Origin: Acidimicrobiia bacterium
GTDB lineage: Bacteria > Actinomycetota > Acidimicrobiia > Spongiisociales > UBA5794
Length of the DNA stretch: 39,702 nt
Direction: 5' to 3'
Assembly: GCA_036396535.1 (NCBI GenBank)
Contig: DASWKR010000028.1
Span: 81,434 to 121,135 of the forward strand
Position 1 is the stretch's first letter; each line of letters starts with the position of its first letter. Of this stretch, positions 1 through 26,344 are shown piece after piece. The notes beneath the pieces are model-generated. The model was not told the DNA's origin. It did no database searches and worked only from the letters and a program-made list of their open reading frames with translations. A program made the position numbers and the translations under genes.

Positions 1-55
1 ATCTCGCCGACTCCAGGTCGGGGACGATCGTGAGCCGGTAGTGCGATGGGACCAC
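1..55 (-). CDS. Probable M1-family aminopeptidase, N-terminal fragment (runs off the left edge)
   Basis: Only the first codons are in the window. The minus-strand reading frame through 1-55 translates to VVPSHYRLTIVPDLESAR, and the same frame upstream reads HRLPRA just before it. The LPxxVxPxHYxLxxxPDL pattern is the conserved N-terminal strand of M1 zinc aminopeptidases (aminopeptidase N type), which remove N-terminal residues from peptides. No ATG lies in frame upstream. The GTG at 55 is the only usual start codon seen, but it would cut off the RLPRA part that family members normally have, so the true start is uncertain. The catalytic HExxH region would lie outside the window. The call rests on about 24 residues. 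Confidence 0.55.
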   Translation of the reverse strand, partial: MVPSHYRLTIVPDLESAR

Positions 56-151
56 AGCTCGGGGCAGACGGTGTGGATCGGCGGCAGACAGTTGAGAGCC
101 TCCTGGACGGCGGCGGGATGGTACCCAGCCAGTGGAGCAACCCGAGCGGGA

Positions 152-157
152 TAAGCT
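152..157 (+). promoter_or_regulatory. -10 box TAAGCT, leaderless promoter of the DUF2277 gene
   Basis: TAAGCT ends 6 nt before the ATG at 164 and there is no Shine-Dalgarno sequence. This spacing puts the transcription start at or next to the ATG. The same arrangement recurs before several genes in this window. Confidence 0.45.
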
Positions 158-163
158 CAGACG

Positions 164-379
164 ATGTGCAGAAGCATCAAGACTCTCCGCAGCACCGAGT
201 CGCCGGCGACGCCGGAAGAGATCGAGGCCGCCGCACTCCAGTTCGTGCGCAAGATCTCGGGATACCGACAGCCGTCGAAGGCCAATCAGCAGGTGTTCGA
301 CGCAGCAGTCGACGAGGTGACGCGGGCCTCTGAGAGGCTCCTCGCCAGACTGGTCGTGAGGACGCCGCGCAGCGCATGA
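164..379 (+). CDS. DUF2277 family protein
   Basis: This 71-residue protein begins MCRSIKTLR and continues with TPEEIEAAALQFVRKISGYRQPS and an alanine/valine-rich helix. That is the signature of the DUF2277 family, small soluble proteins of unknown function in actinobacteria and some other bacteria. Length and start fit the family, whose members share the MCRSIKxLR opening containing Cys2. The ATG has no ribosome binding site but follows a -10 box by 6 nt, suggesting a leaderless mRNA. It is divergent from the aminopeptidase fragment and convergent with the SRPBCC gene, with a hairpin terminator between. Family assignment is confident; no function can be inferred. Confidence 0.88.
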   Translation: MCRSIKTLRSTESPATPEEIEAAALQFVRKISGYRQPSKANQQVFDAAVDEVTRASERLLARLVVRTPRSA

Positions 380-397
380 CCGTGGAGGCGACGCGAC

Positions 398-424
398 GAG
401 GGGGCCGGCTGGGCCGACCCCCTC
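398..424. terminator. Bidirectional hairpin between convergent genes
   Basis: The arms GAGGGGGCCGG (398-408) and CCGACCCCCTC (414-424) pair over 11 positions with one mismatch and a 5-nt loop. The hairpin lies between the ends of the DUF2277 gene (+) and the SRPBCC gene (-). No U-run is obvious on either side, so efficiency is unknown. Confidence 0.55.
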
Positions 425-444
425 TGACACGATGGTGAGCGAAC

Positions 445-930
445 CTACTTCATCGAGTCGAGCAGCTCTTCGAGCCGGTCGAACGTCTCTTGCATGCCGC
501 CCTCCATGCCCGAGTTGATGTGACCGTCCCGGTACTCCTTCTTCTCGTGGAGAACGACGGTCGTCAGGGTCGTTCGACCGTTCTCCTCGGTCAGGGTCAC
601 CGTATTGACGGACTCCGCATCCGGGAAGCCCTCGTAGACCTCGGTCGACACGAGGCGGTGCGGCGCCTCGATCTCCCGGTAGACGCCGTGGAACCCGTGC
701 TCGTCGTCCCCAGGGCCTCTCACGACGTATCGCCACGCTCCACCGACCTGCAGGTCGATCTCGCACACGACGAAATGCGAGGTTCGCAGGCCCCACCACC
801 GCTCGACCAGCTCAGGGGTGGTCATGGCCTCGAAGACCAGGCGGGCTGGTGCGTCGAACACCCTGGTGATGACGATCTCGAGATCCGACGGCAGGGTCAC
901 CGATGCCGATCCGCTATGCGCCACGTTCAT
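445..930 (-). CDS. SRPBCC / AHSA1-type START-fold protein
   Basis: This 161-residue protein is in the SRPBCC (Bet v1-like) superfamily, AHSA1 branch. The N-terminal half has ITRVFDAPARLVFEAMTTPE followed by RWWGLR, the usual helix-grip opening. The middle has GGAWRYVVRGPGDDEHGFHG, and the C-terminal helix runs GMEGGMQETFDRLEELL. These proteins bind hydrophobic ligands in a deep cavity; the ligand here is unknown. The ATG at 930 is chosen because GGAGG lies just upstream and the longer frame reads through the upstream gene. It overlaps the arsR-type regulator by 17 nt, so the two are probably co-transcribed. ArsR-AHSA1 pairs are common and often form self-regulated units. Confidence 0.85.
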   Translation of the reverse strand: MNVAHSGSASVTLPSDLEIVITRVFDAPARLVFEAMTTPELVERWWGLRTSHFVVCEIDLQVGGAWRYVVRGPGDDEHGFHGVYREIEAPHRLVSTEVYEGFPDAESVNTVTLTEENGRTTLTTVVLHEKKEYRDGHINSGMEGGMQETFDRLEELLDSMK

Positions 931-7865: not shown

Positions 7866-8297
7866 ATGTCAACCCTGGCACTCACAAAGGAAACCTTCGA
7901 AGAGACGATCGCCGACAACGACATGGTCCTCGTCGACTTCTGGGCCGAGTGGTGCGGGCCGTGCCGGATGTTCGGCCCGGTCTTCGAGAAGGTCTCCGAG
8001 GACCACCCGGACATCGTCTTCGCCAAGGTCGACACCGAAGCGCAACAGGAGCTGGCCGGGTACTTCAACGTCCGCTCCATCCCGACGCTCATGATCTTCC
8101 GTGACCAGATCGGGATCTACTCGCAGCCCGGGGCCCTTCCCGAAGGCATGCTCCGCAGCCTCGTCGATCAGGCAAAGGCACTCGACATGGACGACGTGAA
8201 ACGCCAGATCGAAGAGCACGACCACGACGACGACGGCCACGACCACGACCACGCCGGCCACGACCACTCGGAGCATCCGCAGAGACGAACGCGCTGA
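7866..8297 (+). CDS. Thioredoxin with a histidine-rich C-terminal tail
   Basis: Residues 1-108 form a complete thioredoxin: FWAEWCGPCRMF (Cys30, Cys33), the KVDTE strand and the cis-proline SIPTL at about 71-75. No signal peptide is visible, so it should be cytoplasmic. The extra tail (about residues 116-143) has eight histidines in 20 residues mixed with aspartates (EHDHDDDGHDHDHAGHDHSEH), a typical zinc, nickel or copper binding composition. Ordinary thioredoxins of about 105-110 residues lack it. A GGAG ribosome binding site precedes the ATG. It is transcribed away from the ccm operon with only 175 bp between. The thioredoxin call is firm; metal binding is inference. Confidence 0.93.
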   Translation: MSTLALTKETFEETIADNDMVLVDFWAEWCGPCRMFGPVFEKVSEDHPDIVFAKVDTEAQQELAGYFNVRSIPTLMIFRDQIGIYSQPGALPEGMLRSLVDQAKALDMDDVKRQIEEHDHDDDGHDHDHAGHDHSEHPQRRTR

Positions 8298-8357: not shown

Positions 8358-9614
8358 GTGAACACGAGTCGCTCGATCATCGCCGCCATCGCCGCCACGG
8401 CTCTCTCGCTCACTCCCGCCGCGGTGGCGCGGGCGGCAACGTGCGGCGGGCTGCCGGCGACCATCACCGGGACGCCCGGGGACGACGTCATCTCGGGTAC
8501 GCCTGGAGACGACGTGATCGTCGGCATGGGTGGCGCAGACGTCATCAGGGGCAAGGGCGGCGACGACGTGATCTGCGGCGCCAAGGGACGCGACCGGCTC
8601 CTCGGCGGCGCCGGCCACGACACGCTGATCGGGGGTACAGGCGCCGACACGCTCCAGGGCGGACCCGGTGACGACCTGCTGCACGGCAAGAAGGGCACGG
8701 ACGAGGCCGACTACCGCGACTCGTCCTCCGGCGTGACCGTCAACCTCGGCGCGGGGACCGGGATGGGCCGCGGAACAGACGTCCTCACCCGCATCGAGAA
8801 CGTCGCCGGCTCCGACTTCGACGACAGCATCTATGGGGACGAGGAGCGGAACGTCCTGCGTGGTCGCGACGGGTTCGACTACATCAACGGCTCGGGGGGC
8901 GACGACGACCTGCTCGGCGGCGGCGGCAACGGCGACTACCTCGAGGGAGGCGCCGGTGACGACCTCGTCGACGGAGGCTCCTCGAACCCGGGCTACGGCG
9001 ACTACGCCTTCTTCAGCGCCTCCGCAGCACCCGTCACGGTCGACCTGGCGGCCGGGACGGCGTCGGGCGACGGCAACGACGTGCTCACCGGCATCGAAGG
9101 CATGTTCGGATCGGCACACGACGACGTCCTCTACGGAGGGCCCGGCAACGACTCCATCGGCGGCGAAACGGGCGACGACCTGATCGTGGGGCGCGGAGGG
9201 AGCGACAATCTCGGCGGGGGACCCGGGAACGACGACGTCCGTGGTGGGCCGGGCGACGATGTCGTGAGCGGATCGACCGGCGACGACGCGCTCGACGGAG
9301 GAGCAGGCCTCGATCGACTCGACTACACCACCACGGCAGGCGCCGTCACCCTCGATCTCGCCGCCGGAACGGCGACCGGAGACGGGTCGGACACCATCGA
9401 GCGCGTCGAGATCGTGTGGGGAACCAGCGGTGACGACGTACTGCGCGGTAGCAGCATGCCGGACGTCATCGACGGACGAGCCGGCGACGACGTCCTGGCG
9501 GGGCGCGGCGGCGACGACACGCTCAACGGCAGCCTCGGCACTGACGACATCGACGGAGGCCCCGGAACAGACCGATGCATCGACGGTGAGGTGCTGGCGC
9601 GCTGCGAGCTGTGA
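8358..9614 (+). CDS. Secreted RTX-like calcium-binding repeat protein
   Basis: The protein has 418 residues. Residues 1-26 are a Sec signal peptide ending ARA|AT. The rest is made of GGxGxDxLxG nonapeptides of the hemolysin-type calcium-binding family, for example GTPGDDVISG and GGPGDDLLHG. These fold into calcium-loaded parallel beta rolls. Three VTVDLAAGTASGDGNDVLT-like segments at about residues 125, 226 and 330 divide the repeats into modules of about 100 residues. Four cysteines (about 29, 72, 411, 416) could form disulfides. No enzymatic domain or type I secretion partner is nearby, and the Sec signal argues against type I export. Start: GTG with strong GGGAGGA upstream. Role unknown, perhaps surface or adhesive. 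Confidence 0.9.
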   Translation: MNTSRSIIAAIAATALSLTPAAVARAATCGGLPATITGTPGDDVISGTPGDDVIVGMGGADVIRGKGGDDVICGAKGRDRLLGGAGHDTLIGGTGADTLQGGPGDDLLHGKKGTDEADYRDSSSGVTVNLGAGTGMGRGTDVLTRIENVAGSDFDDSIYGDEERNVLRGRDGFDYINGSGGDDDLLGGGGNGDYLEGGAGDDLVDGGSSNPGYGDYAFFSASAAPVTVDLAAGTASGDGNDVLTGIEGMFGSAHDDVLYGGPGNDSIGGETGDDLIVGRGGSDNLGGGPGNDDVRGGPGDDVVSGSTGDDALDGGAGLDRLDYTTTAGAVTLDLAAGTATGDGSDTIERVEIVWGTSGDDVLRGSSMPDVIDGRAGDDVLAGRGGDDTLNGSLGTDDIDGGPGTDRCIDGEVLARCEL

Positions 9615-15110: not shown

Positions 15111-18100
15111 GTGAGAGCGCAGCGCGACCTCGGCGGTGATGGGTCCAAGGTGCGTGTCCTCGATCCGATCGCGGACGGTCTGCCCCGGGTCTCGCAGCCG
15201 CCACCGCAAGGGCAGCCGCCCCCGAGGCCGCATCGGTTCTTGCCGGTGGCGCTCGCCTTCTTCGCCTTGGCGGCTGCCTGGCTCGTCGCCCTGGCAGCCG
15301 GAACCGACGAGCCGGGGCCACCCGGCACCACCACGCCGCCCGCCGCGCAGGCCCCACCGACCATCGCACCCGGTCGGGTTGCCGTCGTGCTGCAGGCCCC
15401 GGAGGAGAGCGGCGGGATGATCTCATGGGCGGCCGCATCGCTCGGCAGCGAGGCGGTCGTCAACGACATCGTCCAGCTCGGCGGGCTGTATCTCGCGGTC
15501 GGCTCGCTCGAAGGCGCCCCGGCGGCGTGGCGCTCGCCGGACGGGATCCAGTGGCGGAGCGTGGCGGTGGGGGGTGCCGACGAGCCCGGGTCGATCGATG
15601 TCCTCTCGACGAACGGCGCCACCCCCGGCGACATCATCGCAATCGGCCAGAGCCGGGGGCGCGCCGCCGTTTGGCGGCCCCCACTCGTCCCGCAGCTCGA
15701 GCTCGTCGGCATCGAGCCGGAGTTGTCCGCCGCAGAGCTCGTCGCAACCGTCCGTCTCGGTGACGCCTGGCTGGTGCTCGGGCGGCAGGCGCCGTCTGGC
15801 GATTCGTTAGGTGAACCGTCTGGCGATGCTGTCACGTCGACCAGCTGGCTCGGGTCGCCGGAGAACGGCTGGAGCCTGGTGGGGACCATCCCGGGCAGCG
15901 TCTCAGACGTCGTCGTCCACGACGGTGTCGTGTACGCAGTCGGCGCCCAGTGCATCGAGACGGGCTGCCGCCCCGCCATCTGGACGAGTTTCGACGGCGC
16001 CGACTGGGAGCCGGTCGCCACCGAATCGACCGGCTTGCCGGGCTCGATCTCGTTGCGCCTCGGCGACCTGAGCGCCGTTGCCGCGGCGGGTGACACCCTG
16101 ATCGCCGTCGGAGCCATCGGCACCGGCGAGGGATCGCGCGCCGCCATCTGGCGGTCGATCGACGGGAAGAGCTGGCGGGAGACTCTCCCCGGCGAGGGGG
16201 CAGGCGTCACCATCGTGATCGCAGCCATGGCGCTGCCGCTCGACGACGACACCCCCACGGCGATCGTCGAGGTCGGGGGGGAGCGCTTCGAGGTGACCAC
16301 CGGGACGGTCATCGAGACCGACCTCGGCGACGTCTTGGTGAGGGCGGTCGATCGGGACGGCGTCCACGTGGTATACGGCTGCACTCCATACGGCCAACCG
16401 GAAGGGACTTGCGGGGGATCGATGTCTCCGGGACGGCCCCTCGAGATCGGCGGCCTGGAGCGTGCAACACACGTAGCGGCCTTCGGCGAAAGAGTCGTCG
16501 TCTCGGGCGTCGAAGGCGTCGCCCGGTCGCGCCCTCTCACGTGGACGTCGAAGGACAGCGGGACGACGTGGCGCGAGTCGGTCGTCACCGGGACGGGAGC
16601 AGGAACGCTGGTGGCGACCCGCCTCGCCGACGTTGCTCTCATCGTCGCCGAGGACGGCGAGTCGACGGTGGCGCTCCGAGGGGTGTGGAGGACATCGGAG
16701 GAGATCGCAGCGGGCCTCGACAAGGTCGACCGGCTGGTGGCGGCGCTCAACGGCTCGGGAACGGCGAACGACCTCGTCGATCTGCTCGCCAAGGACGACC
16801 CGGCGACGCTGGAGATCCGAGGCCTCCCCGGGATCGGGCCGATGATCCCCCACTGGGTGAGCGACAGCGGCAGGCGAGTGCGCACGGCCGCCGTTTCGGA
16901 CACGCTCGAGTTCGCCGCCGTCACCCGGCTCGACGTGACCCTGACGCAGTGCTCGGGCACCCACGACTTCGAGGCCGGCCTCACAAGGGTGAGGTGCGGG
17001 TACCTGGCGACCTCCGCCGTCCTCGAGCGCCTCGGCCTGATGGGCTTCGTCCATGGGACGCTCGTGGCCCACGTGAGCGACGGGGGCATCACGTACGTCT
17101 CGGTGACGGGCAACGAGGAGCATCCGCTCCTCCAGCTCGCCGAGTGGGTGCTGTGGACCGATCCCCTGCGGTTCGCCCCGACGTTCGGCAGCCTGGCCGG
17201 CGACGGCTCGTTCGTGGTCGACCCTGCGCTGACGAGGGCAGCAGCCAGGCGCCAGCTGCGCCTCGCTCGCCAGTACGCCGCCGCGTCCCACCAGGCGGCG
17301 TCTCCATACGAGGCAAGCACGCCGTTCGGGTCGATGCAGTTCTACCCTTGGTCGACGAGCGGCCCGGGGGACGACCCCGCCGCCACATATCCCGACGTGA
17401 CCTACGACGGCCGTGGATACGTGGCCCTCCAGCAACGGACCAGCTCGACGTGGGCGCTGTTCACCTCGCAGGACGGGCAGACGTGGACGGGGAACATCCC
17501 GGAGACCGACGCCGAGCTCACCAGGTTCCTAGGCGCCGCCGACCACACCATCGTCTCGGACCCTTCGGGTGAGGCCCTGTGGGAGTGGACGGGCACGGGA
17601 CTCCTGCCCATCGACCTCGAGCGTCCCGAGGGGACGCGCGCCTACGCCACTTCGGCGGCGTCGCGCGCCGGCGTGACACTGATCGTCGGCAACACGGATC
17701 ACGCCGACAGCGCCACCGGGATCTCCACGTGGCGATACGAGGCTGGGACGGCGACGAGAGTGTTCGACCCGAGGGACGTCGGGATCGTCGATCCGATCAT
17801 CACTGCGACGGACTCGTGGTTCCTGATGCTCGACCGAACGAACGGGATCGCTGCCCGCTCCGACGACGGGGTGACCTGGGACCAAGCGGCCCAGCTCACG
17901 CTGCCGGGCGCATCCGTAGTCGAGGCTCTGTGGGTGGTCGGCGAGACCGTCTACGCCAACCTCGCGGTCGACGCCTCGTGCGTGCCTGGGAGCGTGGCCA
18001 TCACGGCCTGTCGACCTTCGTCGTCCGTGAGGCGTCTGATAGGAGGCGCTTGGGAGGAGATCGAGGGTCTGCGGCTCGAGACCGCCTTCGCCGGCCCGCA

Positions 18101-18329
18101 TGGCATCGTCGCGGTCGCCAAGCCGAAGATCGACCACCACACCGTCTCCGGGCCGTTGCTCATGTCCGTCGACGGCGAGACCTGGCAGCCGCTGGGCGCC
18201 TTCTACCCGGTGGCGATCGCCCCCGGGTCCACACGACGGGTGAGCGGAGCGGCAGTCGGCGACGACGGCATGCTCATCCTCGTCCAGAACGACGTCGGCG
18301 ATACGCTCCTCGTCGGGTCGCTTCGCTAG
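15111..18329 (+). CDS. Very large membrane-anchored Asp-box (beta-propeller-like) extracytoplasmic protein
   Basis: This 1072-residue protein has a proline-rich cytoplasmic start, one membrane helix at about residues 43-64 and a Pro/Thr linker, so most lies outside the cell. Seven Asp-box motifs (S/T-x-D-G-x-x-W) appear: SPDGIQW, SFDGADW, SIDGKSW and SKDSGTTW at about residues 143-482, then SQDGQTW, SDDGVTW and SVDGETW at about 787-1022. Asp boxes mark turns between propeller blades, as in sialidases and Vps10-type proteins, but occur without enzyme activity. Between the sets, about residues 540-720 lack the motif and start VDRLVAALNGSGTANDLVDLLAKD, resembling an NTF2/SnoaL-like helix. Start GTG 15111; GTG 15150 is possible. 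I recognise no catalytic residues and assign no function. Confidence 0.8.
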   Translation: MRAQRDLGGDGSKVRVLDPIADGLPRVSQPPPQGQPPPRPHRFLPVALAFFALAAAWLVALAAGTDEPGPPGTTTPPAAQAPPTIAPGRVAVVLQAPEESGGMISWAAASLGSEAVVNDIVQLGGLYLAVGSLEGAPAAWRSPDGIQWRSVAVGGADEPGSIDVLSTNGATPGDIIAIGQSRGRAAVWRPPLVPQLELVGIEPELSAAELVATVRLGDAWLVLGRQAPSGDSLGEPSGDAVTSTSWLGSPENGWSLVGTIPGSVSDVVVHDGVVYAVGAQCIETGCRPAIWTSFDGADWEPVATESTGLPGSISLRLGDLSAVAAAGDTLIAVGAIGTGEGSRAAIWRSIDGKSWRETLPGEGAGVTIVIAAMALPLDDDTPTAIVEVGGERFEVTTGTVIETDLGDVLVRAVDRDGVHVVYGCTPYGQPEGTCGGSMSPGRPLEIGGLERATHVAAFGERVVVSGVEGVARSRPLTWTSKDSGTTWRESVVTGTGAGTLVATRLADVALIVAEDGESTVALRGVWRTSEEIAAGLDKVDRLVAALNGSGTANDLVDLLAKDDPATLEIRGLPGIGPMIPHWVSDSGRRVRTAAVSDTLEFAAVTRLDVTLTQCSGTHDFEAGLTRVRCGYLATSAVLERLGLMGFVHGTLVAHVSDGGITYVSVTGNEEHPLLQLAEWVLWTDPLRFAPTFGSLAGDGSFVVDPALTRAAARRQLRLARQYAAASHQAASPYEASTPFGSMQFYPWSTSGPGDDPAATYPDVTYDGRGYVALQQRTSSTWALFTSQDGQTWTGNIPETDAELTRFLGAADHTIVSDPSGEALWEWTGTGLLPIDLERPEGTRAYATSAASRAGVTLIVGNTDHADSATGISTWRYEAGTATRVFDPRDVGIVDPIITATDSWFLMLDRTNGIAARSDDGVTWDQAAQLTLPGASVVEALWVVGETVYANLAVDASCVPGSVAITACRPSSSVRRLIGGAWEEIEGLRLETAFAGPHGIVAVAKPKIDHHTVSGPLLMSVDGETWQPLGAFYPVAIAPGSTRRVSGAAVGDDGMLILVQNDVGDTLLVGSLR

Positions 18330-19759: not shown

Positions 19760-20779
19760 ATGCGCTTCGAGTCCATGCCGAAGGTGGAGCTCCACCTGCA
19801 CCTCGAGGGCGCCATCCCCGTCGCCACGATGTGGGAGCTCATCGAAGGGCGCGGCGGGCACCCGGACGTCCCCGACCTAGAGGCGCTCGTCCGCCGGTAC
19901 GAGTACCGCGACTTCGCCCACTTCATCGAGACCTGGATCTGGATGAACCAGTTCCTCGACTCCTACGACGCCTTCCAGGCGGCCGCCGAGGCCGTCGCCG
20001 CCAGTCTCGCATCACAGCGAATCGTGTACGCCGAGGCTTCGTACTCCCCTTCCGACTTCGCTCGGTTCGACCTGGCGCCGGACGAGCTCGCCATGGCGAT
20101 CCGTCGCGGGTTGGACCGCATTCCGCACGTCCGTGTCGGCCTCGTCGCCGACCTCGTGCGGGACAAGGGACCACAGCGAGCCGAACGGACGCTCGACGCC
20201 GTCATCGACGTGGCACCCGACGCAGGCATCGTCGGGATCACGATCGGTGGGTCCGAAGCCGAGTTTCCCCCGGAGCCCTTTGCCGCCGTGTACTCCAGGG
20301 CCCGCCGGTCGGGCCTCCGCCTCAGCGCTCACGCCGGCGAAGCCGCCGGGGCGGCGAGCGTGCGCGGCGCCCTCGACCATCTCGGCGTCGACCGGATCGG
20401 CCACGGAATCCGCGCCGTCGAGGACCCTGAAGTCCTCTTTCGCCTGGTGAACGGGAACGTGCCGCTCGAGGTGTGCCCGAGCTCGAACCTGGCGACCGGT
20501 GTGGCCGACTCTTGGGACACGCATCCTGTTCGGACCCTGATCGACGTCGGCGCCATGGTCACCATCAGCTCGGACGACCCTGCCATGTTCCACAACTCGG
20601 TTGCGGGAGACCTCGAGGCGCTCTACGGGCTCGGGTACGGCGACGCCACCATCCAGCGGCTCGCCGAGAACGCCATCGAGGCCTCATGGGCGCCGCCCAC
20701 CGTGAAGCTGGCTCTCGCCGACGAGCTCGGCGCATGGTGGGACGGCATGGCGCGAGACGCTTCGTTCACGTCCACTTGA
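19760..20779 (+). CDS. Adenosine deaminase-family aminohydrolase
   Basis: This 339-residue TIM-barrel metal hydrolase opens with VELHLHLEGA (zinc histidines 12 and 14), then has LSAHAGEAAG (zinc histidine and catalytic glutamate), RIGHGIRAVEDPE, and TISSDDPAMF (zinc aspartate). All active-site motifs of the adenosine/adenine/aminodeoxyfutalosine deaminase family are present. The substrate cannot be read from sequence. In bacteria that make menaquinone by the futalosine route a close relative deaminates aminodeoxyfutalosine, but no mqn genes are visible here. Start ATG 19760; ATG 19775 (MPKVELHLHLEG) is nearly as good. The 3' end overlaps the convergent cbiZ end by 14 nt. Confidence 0.88.
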   Translation: MRFESMPKVELHLHLEGAIPVATMWELIEGRGGHPDVPDLEALVRRYEYRDFAHFIETWIWMNQFLDSYDAFQAAAEAVAASLASQRIVYAEASYSPSDFARFDLAPDELAMAIRRGLDRIPHVRVGLVADLVRDKGPQRAERTLDAVIDVAPDAGIVGITIGGSEAEFPPEPFAAVYSRARRSGLRLSAHAGEAAGAASVRGALDHLGVDRIGHGIRAVEDPEVLFRLVNGNVPLEVCPSSNLATGVADSWDTHPVRTLIDVGAMVTISSDDPAMFHNSVAGDLEALYGLGYGDATIQRLAENAIEASWAPPTVKLALADELGAWWDGMARDASFTST

Positions 20780-21905
20780 GGCGCCAGCCGATGGCGATCG
20801 CCGCCGGGACCTGACGCGCCACGTCACGCAGCGCCGACTCGAGCTCGGCACGCGCCACGGCGAAGACGTCGGGGCGATTGGAGACCGCCACCGCCAGCAG
20901 GGCGCACTGGTTCAGTATCGCCTCGTCCGCCGAGTCCGCCGAGAGCGTGCCGGCACGCCGTCGGTCCAGCAGTGTGGCGACGGCGTAGGCACTTGCCGCC
21001 ACTTGCGGGTCGTTGACGATCGACTCGACGTTGGCGGCGAAGAGGCGGCCCCCGGCATCGTCGAGCAGGCCGACGACTGCATCGGTGAGCTGCGGATCGG
21101 TGAACCCATGGCGCCCGAGCGCGTGGAACAGGTTGCGCGTCAGGGACGGCTCGAGCCCGTTCTGCCACCGGACCGCCTCGAGCGTTGCGTTGCGAACGGA
21201 CACGCCGATGAGCTCGCCGAGCTTGGTGTGATGGCCGGCCCATTGCAGCCTCCTGGCGCCGTGCGCCGGAGCGGCTACGCAGAACTGGTCCGTCCCGGTG
21301 CCGGTCGCCAGCCGGTCGGATGACTTGCTCGGGACCGCCAGCTCGTTGAGCGCCGCCGTCTTCGCCTCGGTGAGCAGCCCGACCGACCTGGCGAGTGCCC
21401 CGGACGACAGGCCGATGTTCGAGACCAGGATCGTGTTGATCGTGCCAGCCACGTTCGAGAAGTCTTCCGGCTCCTCATACCACGGGCCGGGGTCGCCTGC
21501 CGTCGCGGCGTTCGTCGCCACTCCTGCAGTGACGACCGCGGTGACCGTGATCTCCCTGAAGGAAGACCGCTCGATCGCCACGTACTGCATCTGGGCGGCG
21601 GTCCCCATGAGTGCCACCTCGGCGGGGTCGAGCCCGAGGGAGGCGCACACCGCATCGTGATATCCGGAGACTCCGAGCTCGGTGAGCTTGGCGTGTGCCC
21701 GGTCGTCGCCGGTGCCCTCACACATCTGTTCGTTGACGAGGTGCCGCAGCCCGGAGCGACTGCCACCGTTGACCGAGGACGTCGACAGCACGTCGTGCGG
21801 TTCGGCGAGCGAGACCCCGACGACCTTGCCCGTGCGCCAGATCGTGAATGTCTCCGCGGCGCCGAGCGTGATCGCCCCGGCGGGAATGGCGCCTTCCCCG
21901 CTCAT
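20766..21905 (-). CDS. cbiZ: Adenosylcobinamide amidohydrolase CbiZ
   Basis: This 379-residue protein has the N-terminal CbiZ pattern LSTSSVNGGSRSGLRHLVNEQMCEG, with later VTAVVTAGVATNAATAGDP and GTINTILVSNIGLS. CbiZ cleaves the aminopropanol arm from adenosylcobinamide, giving adenosylcobyric acid that can be reassembled with the cell's own arm and lower ligand. The C-terminal half (GTGTDQFCVAAP... onward) continues the family pattern. It is the last gene of the B12 salvage operon, its ATG overlapping the cobD stop by 4 nt. The next gene upstream, cobD/cbiB, does the reverse chemistry, the expected remodelling pair. Confidence 0.88.
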   Translation of the reverse strand: MSGEGAIPAGAITLGAAETFTIWRTGKVVGVSLAEPHDVLSTSSVNGGSRSGLRHLVNEQMCEGTGDDRAHAKLTELGVSGYHDAVCASLGLDPAEVALMGTAAQMQYVAIERSSFREITVTAVVTAGVATNAATAGDPGPWYEEPEDFSNVAGTINTILVSNIGLSSGALARSVGLLTEAKTAALNELAVPSKSSDRLATGTGTDQFCVAAPAHGARRLQWAGHHTKLGELIGVSVRNATLEAVRWQNGLEPSLTRNLFHALGRHGFTDPQLTDAVVGLLDDAGGRLFAANVESIVNDPQVAASAYAVATLLDRRRAGTLSADSADEAILNQCALLAVAVSNRPDVFAVARAELESALRDVARQVPAAIAIGWRLKWT

Positions 21906-22921
21906 GCAGTGCTCCCGAAGGGGGGCCACGGGGCGAGCAACCGCTCCGGCCAGGGCACGACACCCGCGACTGCGAGCACCAGAAAGGCGACGACCATGAA
22001 CAGGAACGTAGTCACTCCGATCAGCAGGACGGCACGTCGGACGTCCGACAGCGTCGCCGCCTCCCTGTCCTCTTCACGACCGAGCCAGATCCCGTCCACG
22101 ACCTTCACGCCGTCACGCCACACGTCGCCGACGAGGCGGAGGCGGAGCGCCCCGGCGGTGGATGCTTCGCTCCACCCGGCGTTCGGGCCGGGTACCAGCG
22201 CGTGCTGCCGCACGCCGCACCGGGCGGCGTCCCTCCCGGACATGCCGGGAAGGACGGCGGCCGCCAAGACGACGAGGAGCCACGTCAGCCGGGCCGGAAC
22301 GAATGCGAGCACGTCGTCGGCCCGGGCGCTCGCCCAGCCGACCCGGCGGAACCGCTCCGACTTGTACCCGACCATCGAGTCCGCCGTGCTCACCACCTTG
22401 AAAGCCAGCAGACCGAGGAGCCCGAACAACGTGAAGTAGAAGAGAGGGGCGACCACGCTGTCGGTCAGATTCTCTCCCAGGCTCTCGATCGCCGCCCGGT
22501 TGCAGCCCGCTGCGTCGAGCCTCTCGGTGTCTCTCCCGACGAGCATGCCCGTGGCGGCGCGCGCCTCGCCGAGGTCGCCTGCGTCGGCGGCTCGGCCGAT
22601 CGCCAGCCCATGGCCTGCCAGGTCTCGCACCGCGACGAGGTGAGCGCCCAGGACGACATAGGCGATCCACCCTGCGACTGCGGAGACCGCCCACAACACC
22701 GACAGCACACCGGCCGCAGCGCCAGCGGCCACCGCGACCGACACCAGGAGCAGGGCAACGCCGCCGGCGTACCCGTTCCAGCCGCGGGAGCGGAGCAGTC
22801 GCTCGCCACCACCGATGAACGACCCGATGAGCCGGATCGGGTGGAGGCGATAGCGAGGGTCGCCGACCAGCACGTCCACCAGCAGGACGGCAGCGACGAG
22901 CAGGAACGCCTCAAACGACAT
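21902..22921 (-). CDS. cobD: Adenosylcobinamide-phosphate synthase CobD/CbiB
   Basis: This 339-residue integral membrane protein starts MSFEAFLLVAAVLLVDVLVGDPRYRLHPIRLIG, the classic CbiB opening (DxxxGDPxxxxHPVxxxG). Later segments GRDTERLDAAGCNRAAIESLGENLTDSVVAPLFY and GYKSERFRRVGWASARADD are also conserved. It attaches aminopropanol or its phosphate to adenosylcobyric acid. It lies 24 nt after cobO with GGTGAGG as ribosome binding site. Together with CbiZ it allows cobinamide remodelling without de novo corrin synthesis, of which no gene is visible here. Confidence 0.93.
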   Translation of the reverse strand: MSFEAFLLVAAVLLVDVLVGDPRYRLHPIRLIGSFIGGGERLLRSRGWNGYAGGVALLLVSVAVAAGAAAGVLSVLWAVSAVAGWIAYVVLGAHLVAVRDLAGHGLAIGRAADAGDLGEARAATGMLVGRDTERLDAAGCNRAAIESLGENLTDSVVAPLFYFTLFGLLGLLAFKVVSTADSMVGYKSERFRRVGWASARADDVLAFVPARLTWLLVVLAAAVLPGMSGRDAARCGVRQHALVPGPNAGWSEASTAGALRLRLVGDVWRDGVKVVDGIWLGREEDREAATLSDVRRAVLLIGVTTFLFMVVAFLVLAVAGVVPWPERLLAPWPPFGSTA

Positions 22922-22945
22922 GTGGGGGGCGCCTCACCGGGCCCA

Positions 22946-23509
22946 TCAGTAGTCGATACCGCGGCTCGCCGTGATACCCGCTTCGTAGGCGTGCTTCACC
23001 ATGCGCATCTCGGTCACCGTGTCTGCGACCTCGATCAGCTCGGCCGGGGCGTCCCGACCCGTCAGGATCACGTTCACCTTCTCGGGGCGGTGCCGGAGCG
23101 CATCGACGACGTCCTCCGTCGCGATCCACCCCCAGTTCATGGGGTACGTGATCTCGTCGAGGATGACCATCTCGTACTCGCCACCTGCCAGTTTCTCCTT
23201 GGCGAGGCGCCACGCCTCCTGGGCGATCGCCTGGGACTCGCCGAGGTCCTCGGAGTCCCACGTGAACCCGTCTCCCAGCGCCCACCAATCGACGCCGAGG
23301 CGGCCGGCGACCTCTTCCTCGCCGACCTTCCACTTCCCGGACTTGATGAACTGGATCACCCCGACCCGCCAGCCCCTGGCGACGGCCCGCATGGCCGTGC
23401 CGAAGGCGGCGGTCGACTTCCCCTTCCCGTCTCCCGTGTTGACGATGACGACGGAAGCTGCCCGCCGTGGTCGCGGCTCCGGAGCGCTCGTCGGTGGCGT
23501 GTGGGTCAT
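22946..23509 (-). CDS. cobO: Cob(I)yrinic acid a,c-diamide adenosyltransferase CobO (BtuR type)
   Basis: This 187-residue P-loop enzyme has NTGDGKGKSTAAFG (about residues 24-37), GVIQFIKSGKW, and VILDEITYPMNWGWI, typical of the CobA/CobO/BtuR family. It transfers the adenosyl group of ATP to Co(I) corrinoids, making the forms that CbiZ and CobD use. The N-terminal 17 residues are proline-rich and probably disordered. Start ATG 23509 overlaps the btuD stop by 4 nt. Confidence 0.94.
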   Translation of the reverse strand: MTHTPPTSAPEPRPRRAASVVIVNTGDGKGKSTAAFGTAMRAVARGWRVGVIQFIKSGKWKVGEEEVAGRLGVDWWALGDGFTWDSEDLGESQAIAQEAWRLAKEKLAGGEYEMVILDEITYPMNWGWIATEDVVDALRHRPEKVNVILTGRDAPAELIEVADTVTEMRMVKHAYEAGITASRGIDY

Positions 23510-24312
23510 CTGGTGGCCTCCTCTCGGTCGCCTGCATGGTGCCGCCTCAGCGGGATGACGACGACGGTGCCTCCCGGTCCCTCGAGCACGGTCACGTCTG
23601 CGCCGTAATGACGACGAATGTTGTCCTCGGTGAGTACCGAGCGCGCCGGCCCGGAGCCGGCCACAGTCCCGTTCGACAGAAGGACGAGTCGGTCGCAGAA
23701 CTGGGCGGCGAGAGTGAGGTCGTGCAAGGCGGCGACGATCGTCAGCGACCTGTGGCGCCGCAGCGCCTCGACCTCCTCGAGGACCTGCACCCTATGGCCG
23801 ACGTCGAGCGCCGACGTCGGCTCGTCGAGCAGCAGCACCGGAGCAGCCTGCGCAAGGGCGCGTGCGATCACAACTCGCTGCAGCTGGCCGCCGGAGAGCG
23901 TGTCGAGGGGCCTGGCGGCGATGTCGACGAGGTCGAGGGCATCCAGGGCGGCCCGCACCGCGGTGGCGTCCCGCGCTCCCTCCCGCTCGAACAGGCCCAG
24001 GTGCGGGGTCCTCCCGAGCATGACGTAGTCGAAGACGAGCATGCCCGGAGGCACGACCGGGTCCTGCGGCACCGAGGCGAACAGCCTCGCCCTTCGCTTG
24101 GCTCCGATCGCCTCGAGCGCTTCGCCGTCGACCACGATCTCTCCCGAATGGTCGAGCCCTCCGGCGAGCGTCTGGAGGAGGGTCGACTTGCCGGCGCCGT
24201 TCGGCCCGATCAGCCCGAGCCACTCTCCCGGTGCCACGTCGAGATCGATGCCGCGCAGAACGGGGTGCTTCCCACGAACCACGCCGAGCGCTCGAACCGT
24301 GAGAGACGTCAT
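23506..24312 (-). CDS. btuD: Corrinoid ABC transporter ATP-binding protein BtuD
   Basis: This 268-residue ATPase has Walker A GPNGAGKSTLL, Q-loop VPQDPVVPP, signature LSGGQLQRVVIARAL, Walker B VLLLDEPTSAL and H-loop AALHDL. It belongs to the FecE/BtuD group that powers siderophore, heme and cobalamin importers. The cobalamin riboswitch upstream of the operon and the cob genes downstream point to corrinoid uptake. It overlaps btuC and cobO by 4 nt each. Confidence 0.92.
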   Translation of the reverse strand: MTSLTVRALGVVRGKHPVLRGIDLDVAPGEWLGLIGPNGAGKSTLLQTLAGGLDHSGEIVVDGEALEAIGAKRRARLFASVPQDPVVPPGMLVFDYVMLGRTPHLGLFEREGARDATAVRAALDALDLVDIAARPLDTLSGGQLQRVVIARALAQAAPVLLLDEPTSALDVGHRVQVLEEVEALRRHRSLTIVAALHDLTLAAQFCDRLVLLSNGTVAGSGPARSVLTEDNIRRHYGADVTVLEGPGGTVVVIPLRRHHAGDREEATR

Positions 24313-25337
24313 GCCAGCCTCTTGTTCGAGCGGAGGACGATGAGGAAGAAGGGAGCGCCGAGGAAGGCGGTCACGACTCCGATGGGCAGCTCGGCCGGGG
24401 ACACGAGCGAACGCGCCGCCACGTCCGCCCCGACGAGAAAAGCCGCCCCGAGGATCGCCGAGAGCGGGACCACCCGCCGGTAGCTGGTCCCGACGAGGAG
24501 GCGCACGGTGTGCGGCACGATGATGCCGACGAAAGCGATGAGGCCCGAGACGGCCACGACGGCGGCGGTGCCGAGCGTCGCAGCGAGGACCACCCAGCGC
24601 CGTACGGCGGGGGGGCTCACGCCGAGAGACGCCGCTTCCTCATCGTCGAGGGAGAGCACGTCGAGCATCCTCCGGCTCGAGAAGATCACGGCGGCGGCGG
24701 CGACGGCGTAGGGGGCGGCGACCCTCACCTCGGACCACCCCGTCGTGGCGAGCCTGCCGAGGATCCACCCGTAGAGAGCTCGCAAGTCGATCGCCGACCG
24801 CTGCTGCATGTACGTCTGGGCGGCGGTGAAGAACGCAGCCACGGCGACTCCGGCCAGGATCAGCGTCGCAGTCGACCGGCCCCCGGCCGAGCGCCCCAAC
24901 GAGTACGTGGCGGCGACGGCGAGCACCGCCCCGGCGAACGCACCCACGGGGAGCAGCGGGCCACCCGAGGCGTTGGCGGCGAACACGATCGTAGCCCCGA
25001 GGCCGGCGCCGGCCGCCACGCCGAGCAGGTAGGGGTCGGCGAGGGCGTTTCTGAAGACGCCTTGATAAGCCGTCCCCGCCAATGCCAGCATGGATCCGAC
25101 GATGACGCCGAGAACGATGCGGGGCATCCGGATCTGCCAGAGGATGGCCGCCTGCTGGTCCGTGAGGCCCGAGTCGACCTGAACGAGAGGCAGCCGATCC
25201 GCCAGCTCCCGAAGCGCCCCCATGGACCCGATGCTCGCCGGCCCGGTCAGCACGGCGATGGTGAGCACGACGAGGAGGGCGCCGACCGACACCGCCAGGG
25301 AGAGAGGCTCGACCCGCGTGCCCGATGCTTCGCTCAC
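24309..25337 (-). CDS. btuC: Corrinoid ABC transporter permease BtuC (FecCD family)
   Basis: This 342-residue protein has about ten membrane helices. The FecCD landmarks are QIRMPRIVLGVIVGSMLALAGTAYQG near residue 95, NPLADPYLLGV-like RNALADPYLLGVAAGAGLGA, and GLIAFVGIIVPHTVRLLVG. The GTG at 25337 is chosen over the frame open to 25472 because it overlaps the btuF stop as GTGA and begins just before the first membrane helix. It forms the import channel with two BtuD subunits. Confidence 0.92.
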   Translation of the reverse strand: MSEASGTRVEPLSLAVSVGALLVVLTIAVLTGPASIGSMGALRELADRLPLVQVDSGLTDQQAAILWQIRMPRIVLGVIVGSMLALAGTAYQGVFRNALADPYLLGVAAGAGLGATIVFAANASGGPLLPVGAFAGAVLAVAATYSLGRSAGGRSTATLILAGVAVAAFFTAAQTYMQQRSAIDLRALYGWILGRLATTGWSEVRVAAPYAVAAAAVIFSSRRMLDVLSLDDEEAASLGVSPPAVRRWVVLAATLGTAAVVAVSGLIAFVGIIVPHTVRLLVGTSYRRVVPLSAILGAAFLVGADVAARSLVSPAELPIGVVTAFLGAPFFLIVLRSNKRLA

Positions 25338-26344
25338 TTGCTCTCCAGCAAGGATCTCACCGCATCGCCCACCGCCCGCAAGAGGTCGACGATCCTCGGC
25401 CCCCAGCGTGAGGCGACATCGTCGTCGAGCTCGACCACCGCGCCGTTCCGAACGGCTTGCATCGCCTCCCACCCGGGACGCTCGGCGACCGTGGCGGCTG
25501 ATTGCCCACAGCAGACCGTGTCTGCCAGGAAGATGAGGTCCGGATCCGCCTCGATCAGGTACTCCTCGGAGAGCTGCGGATAGCCGAATGCTGCACCGTC
25601 CTCGTCCGCACCGTCTGCGACGTTCACGAGCCCGAGCAATGCGTAGAGCCGGCCGATGAAGGTTGCCGAGGTCGCCGAGTAGAGGTCTTGCCCGAGTTCG
25701 TGGTAGTACGTGAGACCTGCCGCCTCGGCAGGCAGGGCCGCCGCGATCTCCGCCAGGTCGCTGGTCAACGCCTCGTTGAGCGCCGCCGCCTCAGGTGCGT
25801 GACCGGTGGCGGCGCCGAGGTGCTCGATCTGACGGTGGGTGTCGTCGAGGGTGACGGCCACCCCCTGGACGACGACCGGGATGCCAAGTGCCTCGAGCGA
25901 CGAGACGAGATCGCCGGGGTCGAACGAAACGACGACCAAATCGGGCTCGTAGACGGAGATCGCCTCGACGTTCGGCGTCAGGCCCGACAGGTCGGTCAGC
26001 GGCGCCTCAGGGGGATATGTCGAGAACTCGTCCACGGCAACGACCTGATCGCCGGCCCCGATCGCGAACAGGATCTCGGTTGCCGTGGCAGACAGGGACA
26101 CGACGGCGGCCGGTGCCGCGGCGATGGTGATGGATCCGTTGTCCGCATCGATCGTCACCGGGAAGTCTGCCGCCCCCGTCGTCGGCGTCGCCTGGGTCGT
26201 CGACGGCTGGGCCGTGCTCGGCACACCGGCCGTCGTCGTGACCACAGGGGTCGTCGCTTGCAGGGGGGCGGTGGTCGTGGCTGCGGCACCGCCGCACGCC
26301 GCCGCCAGCACCACAAGTCCGATGGTGAGGTTCCTGAAGCGCAA
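25334..26344 (-). CDS. btuF: Corrinoid-binding lipoprotein BtuF
   Basis: The protein has 336 residues. The N-terminus MRFRNLTIGLVVLAAACGG is a lipoprotein signal with lipobox LAAAC (Cys17), followed by a Thr/Pro/Ala linker of about 40 residues. The periplasmic-binding domain shows VVSLSATATEILFAIGAGDQVVAVDEFSTYPPEA and later IPVVVQGVAVTLDDT, as in BtuF/FhuD class III binding proteins. The start is unusual: TTG at 26344, preceded by GGGAGG, with ORF extension upstream overlapping the riboswitch. The ribosome binding site lies inside a hairpin and the start overlaps its U-run (see the regulatory entry). Confidence 0.9.
   Translation of the reverse strand: MRFRNLTIGLVVLAAACGGAAATTTAPLQATTPVVTTTAGVPSTAQPSTTQATPTTGAADFPVTIDADNGSITIAAAPAAVVSLSATATEILFAIGAGDQVVAVDEFSTYPPEAPLTDLSGLTPNVEAISVYEPDLVVVSFDPGDLVSSLEALGIPVVVQGVAVTLDDTHRQIEHLGAATGHAPEAAALNEALTSDLAEIAAALPAEAAGLTYYHELGQDLYSATSATFIGRLYALLGLVNVADGADEDGAAFGYPQLSEEYLIEADPDLIFLADTVCCGQSAATVAERPGWEAMQAVRNGAVVELDDDVASRWGPRIVDLLRAVGDAVRSLLESK

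Follow-up and report, generated by a model that had tools for sequence, protein, structure and literature searches.

Quistgaard & Thirup (2009; PMC2716378) describe several ways in which Asp-box beta-propellers are built into larger proteins. Their type 2 is a propeller with an insert, as in the Vibrio cholerae sialidase; type 3, represented by the GH74 xyloglucanases, has two Asp-box propellers of 7 + 7 blades in one chain; and in type 4, exemplified by yeast Vps10p, two Asp-box propellers are interrupted by one or more other domains. The same authors separate the canonical Asp box, S-x-D-x-G-x-T-W, from a short form, the s-Asp-box, S-x-D-x-x-x-W, and argue that the boxes are structural rather than sugar-binding; in the published structures, as they present them, Asp-box propellers use the top face only and carry the boxes on the opposite face (PMC2716378). 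Here we consider a gene in a 39,702-nucleotide stretch of DNA from an Acidimicrobiia bacterium (contig DASWKR010000028.1, positions 81,434 to 121,135; "the window" throughout). The gene, at window positions 15111..18329 on the plus strand with GTG as its putative start codon, encodes a 1072-residue protein that appears to combine two propeller-like halves, an NTF2-like domain between them and a single N-terminal membrane helix.

The divider and the first propeller of a type 4 organisation are supported here by models, while the second half is known by homology and is poorly modelled. Yeast Vps10p is membrane-anchored, as the window protein seems to be, but its tail is at the C-terminus whereas that of the window protein is at the N-terminus. 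The divider differs as well, being 10CC in Vps10p and NTF2-like here, and the boxes of the window protein are mostly short. A Vps10 domain has 10CC behind its propeller, whereas in the window protein the NTF2-like region follows the first propeller and nothing comes after the second half; sortilin has ten blades, against about seven, counted by eye, in our N-terminal propeller. In the GH74 xyloglucanases the two propellers are directly consecutive, and the window protein has no enzyme family match. The Vibrio cholerae sialidase has a domain inserted in its propeller, comparable to an insert at residues 363-447 described below, but that domain is lectin-like and the window protein has no sialidase match. 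The SnoaL/NTF2-like proteins (SnoaL_2, PF12680; ketosteroid isomerase) share the fold of the middle domain, which differs from them in having no Pfam match, a conserved cysteine pair and a position between propellers.

An earlier note made from the sequence alone, hereafter the preliminary description, held that no described protein has this layout; that was too strong, types 4 and 2 having already been described. In our searches of the open-access literature we found no description of an NTF2-like domain dividing two propellers, nor did searches on sigma factors with fused domains or with a propeller turn up the architecture of the window protein. What appears to be new is a family of s-Asp-box double propellers bridged by an NTF2-like domain, so far found in one family of bacteria, apparently Acidimicrobiia.

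The gene and its family

The frame is a real gene rather than a chance reading frame of high-GC DNA, because matching proteins were found in genomes of the same family and a profile recovered ten members. Protein matches at E <=1e-8 occur in 7 of 50 genomes of the organism's own family (its own genome counted), and a seven-row profile, A1, searched against 138 genomes of the order, returned ten members including the window protein, from ten genomes and four genera. Identity between the window protein and six relatives is 23-25% over the whole alignment. A scan of 395 genomes of the class, limited to the top two candidates in each, gave matches at E <=1e-20 in 11 genomes, every one in the same family; ten of these matches are the members already counted, and the eleventh, in G023, covers model positions 34-339 only. 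No full-length member was found outside that one family at E 1e-20 among the 395 genomes. The domain layout is kept across the ten members, with exceptions in three: G011 is cut by a contig start, G019 has a shortened C-terminal half, and G050 has its conserved tail in another frame than the rest of the gene (L032 around 8000-8160), a frameshift or an assembly error.

Neither Pfam, searched with the protein and with seven members, nor NCBIfam returned a match above chance. The hits set aside include CBM_5_12 (E 4.1) and isolated ones such as Sortilin-Vps10 (two of seven members, best E 0.026). The best single match of the window protein in a PDB sequence search has E 0.38; the family profile matched TUP1 (E 5.2e-4) and a dynein-tail chain (E 0.001), both on propeller-like stretches. 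Together these proteins define a membrane protein family that is restricted to one lineage and for which we found no model in Pfam or NCBIfam; its bacteria enter this analysis solely through metagenome-assembled genomes.

Two propeller-like halves and the domain between them

Seven box motifs begin at residues 142, 293, 349 and 480, and again at 786, 917 and 1019; in 2000 shuffles of the protein the mean was 0.046 motifs and the maximum 2. The count, and the grouping into four and three, are those of the preliminary description, although six of the seven boxes are of the short form. The canonical form fits residues 480-487 only (SKDSGTTW, 16548..16571), and the motif scan assigns the other six as s-Asp-boxes with G after D: residues 142-148 (15534..15554), 293-299 (15987..16007), 349-355 (16155..16175), 786-792 (17466..17486), 917-923 (17859..17879) and 1019-1025 (18165..18185), all on the plus strand. 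One canonical box among seven is not the repeated canonical series by which an Asp-box propeller is recognised. An s-Asp-box propeller is recognised by S/T-x-D/N-x-x-x-W/F/Y repeated above chance, and here the protein has seven short boxes with G after D (one of them Tyr-ended), against 0.078 expected. The additional short motif TYDGRGY, Tyr-ended, at residues 764-770, lies inside the box-to-box gap if it is counted. Across the ten members the canonical box is always single and always lies in the blade that directly follows the beta insert, alongside five to eight short boxes in which G follows D; Tyr-ended short boxes number two, in L002 and in the window protein. The gap between the two groups is longer than the 180 or so residues first proposed, being 298 residues from box to box (488-785), of which about 205 (528-732) are neither propeller nor box.

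A full-length AlphaFold2 model built from seven rows is of moderate confidence (mean pLDDT 62.6, pTM 0.44) and places, in order, a helix at residues 44-62, strands at 103-526, an alpha+beta domain at 529-728 and strands again at 733-1071. The first run of strands, residues ~96-527 (15396..16691, +), interrupted by an insert, can be read by eye as seven blades. In VIA-align, the N-terminal half matches 7roo (CylK) with Z 28.2, a root-mean-square deviation (rmsd) of 3.2 and 314 aligned positions on chain 251..653, and 3fm0 with Z 23.4, rmsd 2.9 and 276 aligned, model 102..528 lying on the whole chain 4..335; 3fm0 is CIAO1, a seven-bladed propeller. Because residues ~102-528 alone match complete propeller chains, the first half is, in a model of moderate confidence, a beta-propeller complete by itself. 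Foldseek with the full model returned mostly propeller chains at TM-scores of 0.10-0.20 on the query, which were not used for the layout.

Within this first propeller the alignment and model suggest a second inserted domain, a small beta insert absent from the preliminary description (residues ~363-447, limits by eye; 16197..16451, +), with a cysteine pair, 424/434, that occurs in the window protein alone. Family searches with residues 363-447 gave no convincing family, and a PilP/GspC-like identity that had come to mind from recall was not supported. An insert-like stretch was also seen at profile E 4.9e-4 to 6.4e-4 in three proteins that look by eye like penicillin-binding protein 2 (L107, L108 and L109); hhalign gives it a probability of 30-46% against the beta insert.

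The region after the first propeller, which the preliminary description thought to begin like NTF2/SnoaL, has kept that assignment, and an NTF2-like fold is supported for it by modelling. Its core spans residues ~528-670 (16692..17120, +) and carries the cysteine pair 614/629 in all ten members; a helical extension at residues ~671-732 (17121..17306, +) is also present in standalone relatives. Modelled alone from seven rows (residues 522-736), the domain reaches pLDDT 79.6 and pTM 0.78. Foldseek with this model gave 32 PDB matches at E <=0.001 (best 1.2e-4), including polyketide cyclases, Mtr2 and NTF2-like proteins, and the best VIA match, 6ihj, has Z 13.2, rmsd 2.6 and 122 aligned positions over model 1..149, that is, residues 522-670. 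Among the 50 VIA matches listed, the titles that name a fold all say NTF2-like, cystatin-like or ketosteroid isomerase; the remainder (CaMKII hubs, LinA, bile-acid dehydratases) presumably belong to the NTF2-like superfamily as well.

The window protein's own middle domain has no match to SnoaL_2 or to any other Pfam family, and six relatives run as single domains against SnoaL_2 gave 28.5 bits (cut-off 27), 24.7 bits, 13.4 bits and, in three cases, no match, the two closest standalone relatives being among these three. In a search of the PDB with the middle-domain profile, 21 of 22 rows at E <=10 are ketosteroid isomerases, at E 0.31-0.88 and over the first helix only, a weak result that serves as a lead. 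Across 296 genomes of the phylum, with the ten best candidates per genome scored, the profile had no match at E 1e-5 outside the window's own genome.

The same domain also stands alone in small proteins of 278-315 residues (L089:4063-4899 and L090:3992-4939 on the minus strand, L091:1409-2281 on the plus strand), where it is preceded by a tail similar to the window protein's and then by a hydrophobic stretch. A phylogeny of the NTF2 domain from 10 full-length, 5 standalone and 2 outgroup rows separates the full-length proteins from the standalone ones with weak support (71/66); its longest terminal branch is that of the window protein. The standalone relatives make the order of assembly testable: tail and NTF2-like domain may have come first and the propellers been added, or the reverse.

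The last part of the chain, residues ~733-1072 (17307..18326, +), is propeller-like in the model, with pLDDT <50 at 927-992. In hhalign comparisons of family slices it aligns onto the first half with probability 98.7 in several shifted registers, a repeat-like behaviour; the halves are homologous, and the middle domain has no similarity to either half (probability 0.1%). The VIA matches extending into the second half come from double-propeller chains and say little about it because their rmsd is 20-27; in that search, run with the full model, residues beyond 624 are barely probed. The second half thus shares its origin with the first, and it probably closes into a ring of its own. A single type 2 propeller with an inserted domain, in place of two propellers, seems very improbable to us: the poor modelling of the C-terminal half and its shortening in G019 would fit such an arrangement, but residues ~102-528 already cover complete propeller chains, and the C-terminal half has ~340 residues and is repeat-like in its alignment with the first. 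One continuous propeller with no insert, the outcome that the preliminary description had set against its own layout, did not appear, since residues ~102-528 match complete chains and the middle is unlike both halves.

Membrane anchor and possible roles

The window protein has one hydrophobic window, residues 43-61, with a Kyte-Doolittle (KD) value of 2.42, and no other above 1.6; the membrane helix is placed at residues 43-62 (15237..15296, +), in agreement with the model helix at 44-62. The eight members with an intact N-terminus each have one strong N-terminal hydrophobic segment (KD 1.97-2.61) and none has a lipobox; G019 has one further weak hydrophobic window, at 1.68. Lysines and arginines are more numerous in the 20 residues before the helix than after it in seven of these eight, with a tie in L018. 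The ten members have 8, 6, 6, 6, 6, 6, 6, 4, 4 and 2 cysteines beyond the helix, always an even number, and these are locally paired, as expected of disulfides outside the cell. Hydropathy, model helix, charge and cysteine pattern thus lend indirect support to the helix and external ectodomain of the preliminary description, and we infer a type II membrane protein with a cytoplasmic N-terminal tail and an extracytoplasmic ectodomain.

As for function, the reading we favour, at roughly even odds, is a disulfide-stabilised protein of the cell surface that binds a ligand or serves as a scaffold and is not an enzyme. The ectodomain would present propeller, NTF2-like domain and propeller in that order outside the cell, a ligand or partner would be held by the variable top faces of the propellers together with the NTF2 pocket, and the single helix would keep the complex at the membrane; the ligand may be a protein or a glycan outside the cell. 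We prefer binding or scaffolding to catalysis because there are few invariant residues of catalytic type and because the cysteine counts are even. In nine aligned rows, with G019 omitted and gaps ignored in columns that retain seven or more letters, the ectodomain residues of the types D, E, H, K, R, Y and C that never vary are D295, D482 and D788, all in boxes, C286, C614, C629 and C957, and R461. Several observations weigh against this preference. If one departure is allowed, D119, E300 and D1052, all outside the boxes and present in the window protein, are nearly invariant, so that an acidic site is possible; with the family diverging to 23-25% identity, the residues of an active site could be wrongly aligned; enzymes are frequent among the structural matches of the N-terminal half (CylK, glycoside hydrolase (GH) and lyase entries); and no conserved gene neighbour was found among the loci compared, the neighbours being NUDIX and class-III aminotransferase genes in the window, DAHP synthase and an APH-type gene in L028, and Peptidase_S9-like and MFS genes in L027.

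These same near-invariant acids would suit a carbohydrate-active enzyme, a hydrolase, sialidase or lyase with a GH74-like cleft between the two propellers, which we regard as unlikely. Asp-box propellers do occur in tandem in GH74 and singly in GH33 (PMC2716378), and the structural matches to GH and lyase entries include, by Foldseek, a putative xyloglucanase, 5jwz. However, neither Pfam nor NCBIfam gave an enzyme match above chance. GH33 sialidases have three conserved arginines, whereas R461 is the single invariant arginine of the ectodomain, and position 292, Arg in eight of nine rows, is Thr in the window protein. GH74 enzymes have a conserved catalytic acid pair; judged by sequence columns only, the nine rows contain no fully invariant Asp or Glu outside the boxes, though D119, E300 and D1052 come close.

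Another possibility, which we hold tentatively and as somewhat more plausible than an enzyme, is a transmembrane sensor whose ectodomain binds a signal and whose short tail relays it to a cytoplasmic partner. The tail, residues 1-42 (15111..15236, +), has VRVLDP at 14-19, a VR.[LI].P-like motif. A similar tail precedes the helix in 13 rows, eight from full-length proteins and five from standalone ones with tail, helix and NTF2-like domain, picked for their membership of these two families and put in register by eye. V and R are kept in at least 90% of the rows, and a profile built from them recovers, at E 1.4e-9, the G050 tail, which had no part in it. The tail of G019, at 5.2e-5, scores no better than scattered and probably unrelated matches, which begin at E 4.8e-6; matches beyond the profile's own rows and G050 were not counted. 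The tail is also only ~40 residues long, contains no recognised domain and may do no more than help the protein insert into the membrane.

The sensor idea draws further on a paralog. The organism's own genome encodes, at L093:4495-6669 (G000:C40:7494-9665), a weak sigma-factor-like domain of the SigE type joined through a membrane helix, placed by eye, to an s-Asp-box propeller that is related to both halves of the window protein (hhalign 96.6 and 97.2). Of 50 family genomes, 12 (the organism's own counted) contain matches to this protein, some of them partial. All four sigma-like domains sampled match TIGR02983 at E <=1, the best at 3.1e-7, and as far as shown they stay below the curated cut-off; the paralog's own match is weak, at 15.2 bits (E 0.015) where the cut-off is 141.55, and Pfam gives no sigma match for it. 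A PDB search with a profile of these domains has a sigma factor as its best match, at E 0.63. There is precedent for such a fusion in the actinobacterial ECF52 sigma factors (SCO4117), in which a sigma domain is described together with a transmembrane region and a domain that binds carbohydrate (PMC5826349), although the window protein itself has no sigma domain.

It might be, and we put this forward with equal reserve, that this Acidimicrobiia clade has a set of modular one-helix surface receptors sharing the VR.[LI].P-like tail as a docking element, with an NTF2-like domain either alone or with two s-Asp-box propellers around it. If so, the related propellers joined to sigma-like domains would make a propeller-based transmembrane signalling system not described before. 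The sigma-linked paralogs suggest a role for such propellers in these bacteria that can be put to the test.

Other features of the window

No tRNA or Rfam match was found within the window. A protein encoded at 8358-9614 on the plus strand is, by eye, rich in GGxGxD-like (RTX-type) repeats. At 20766-25472 on the minus strand lies what looks by eye like a cobalamin synthesis and uptake cluster, with CobT, CobD, CobO, an ABC ATPase and a permease.

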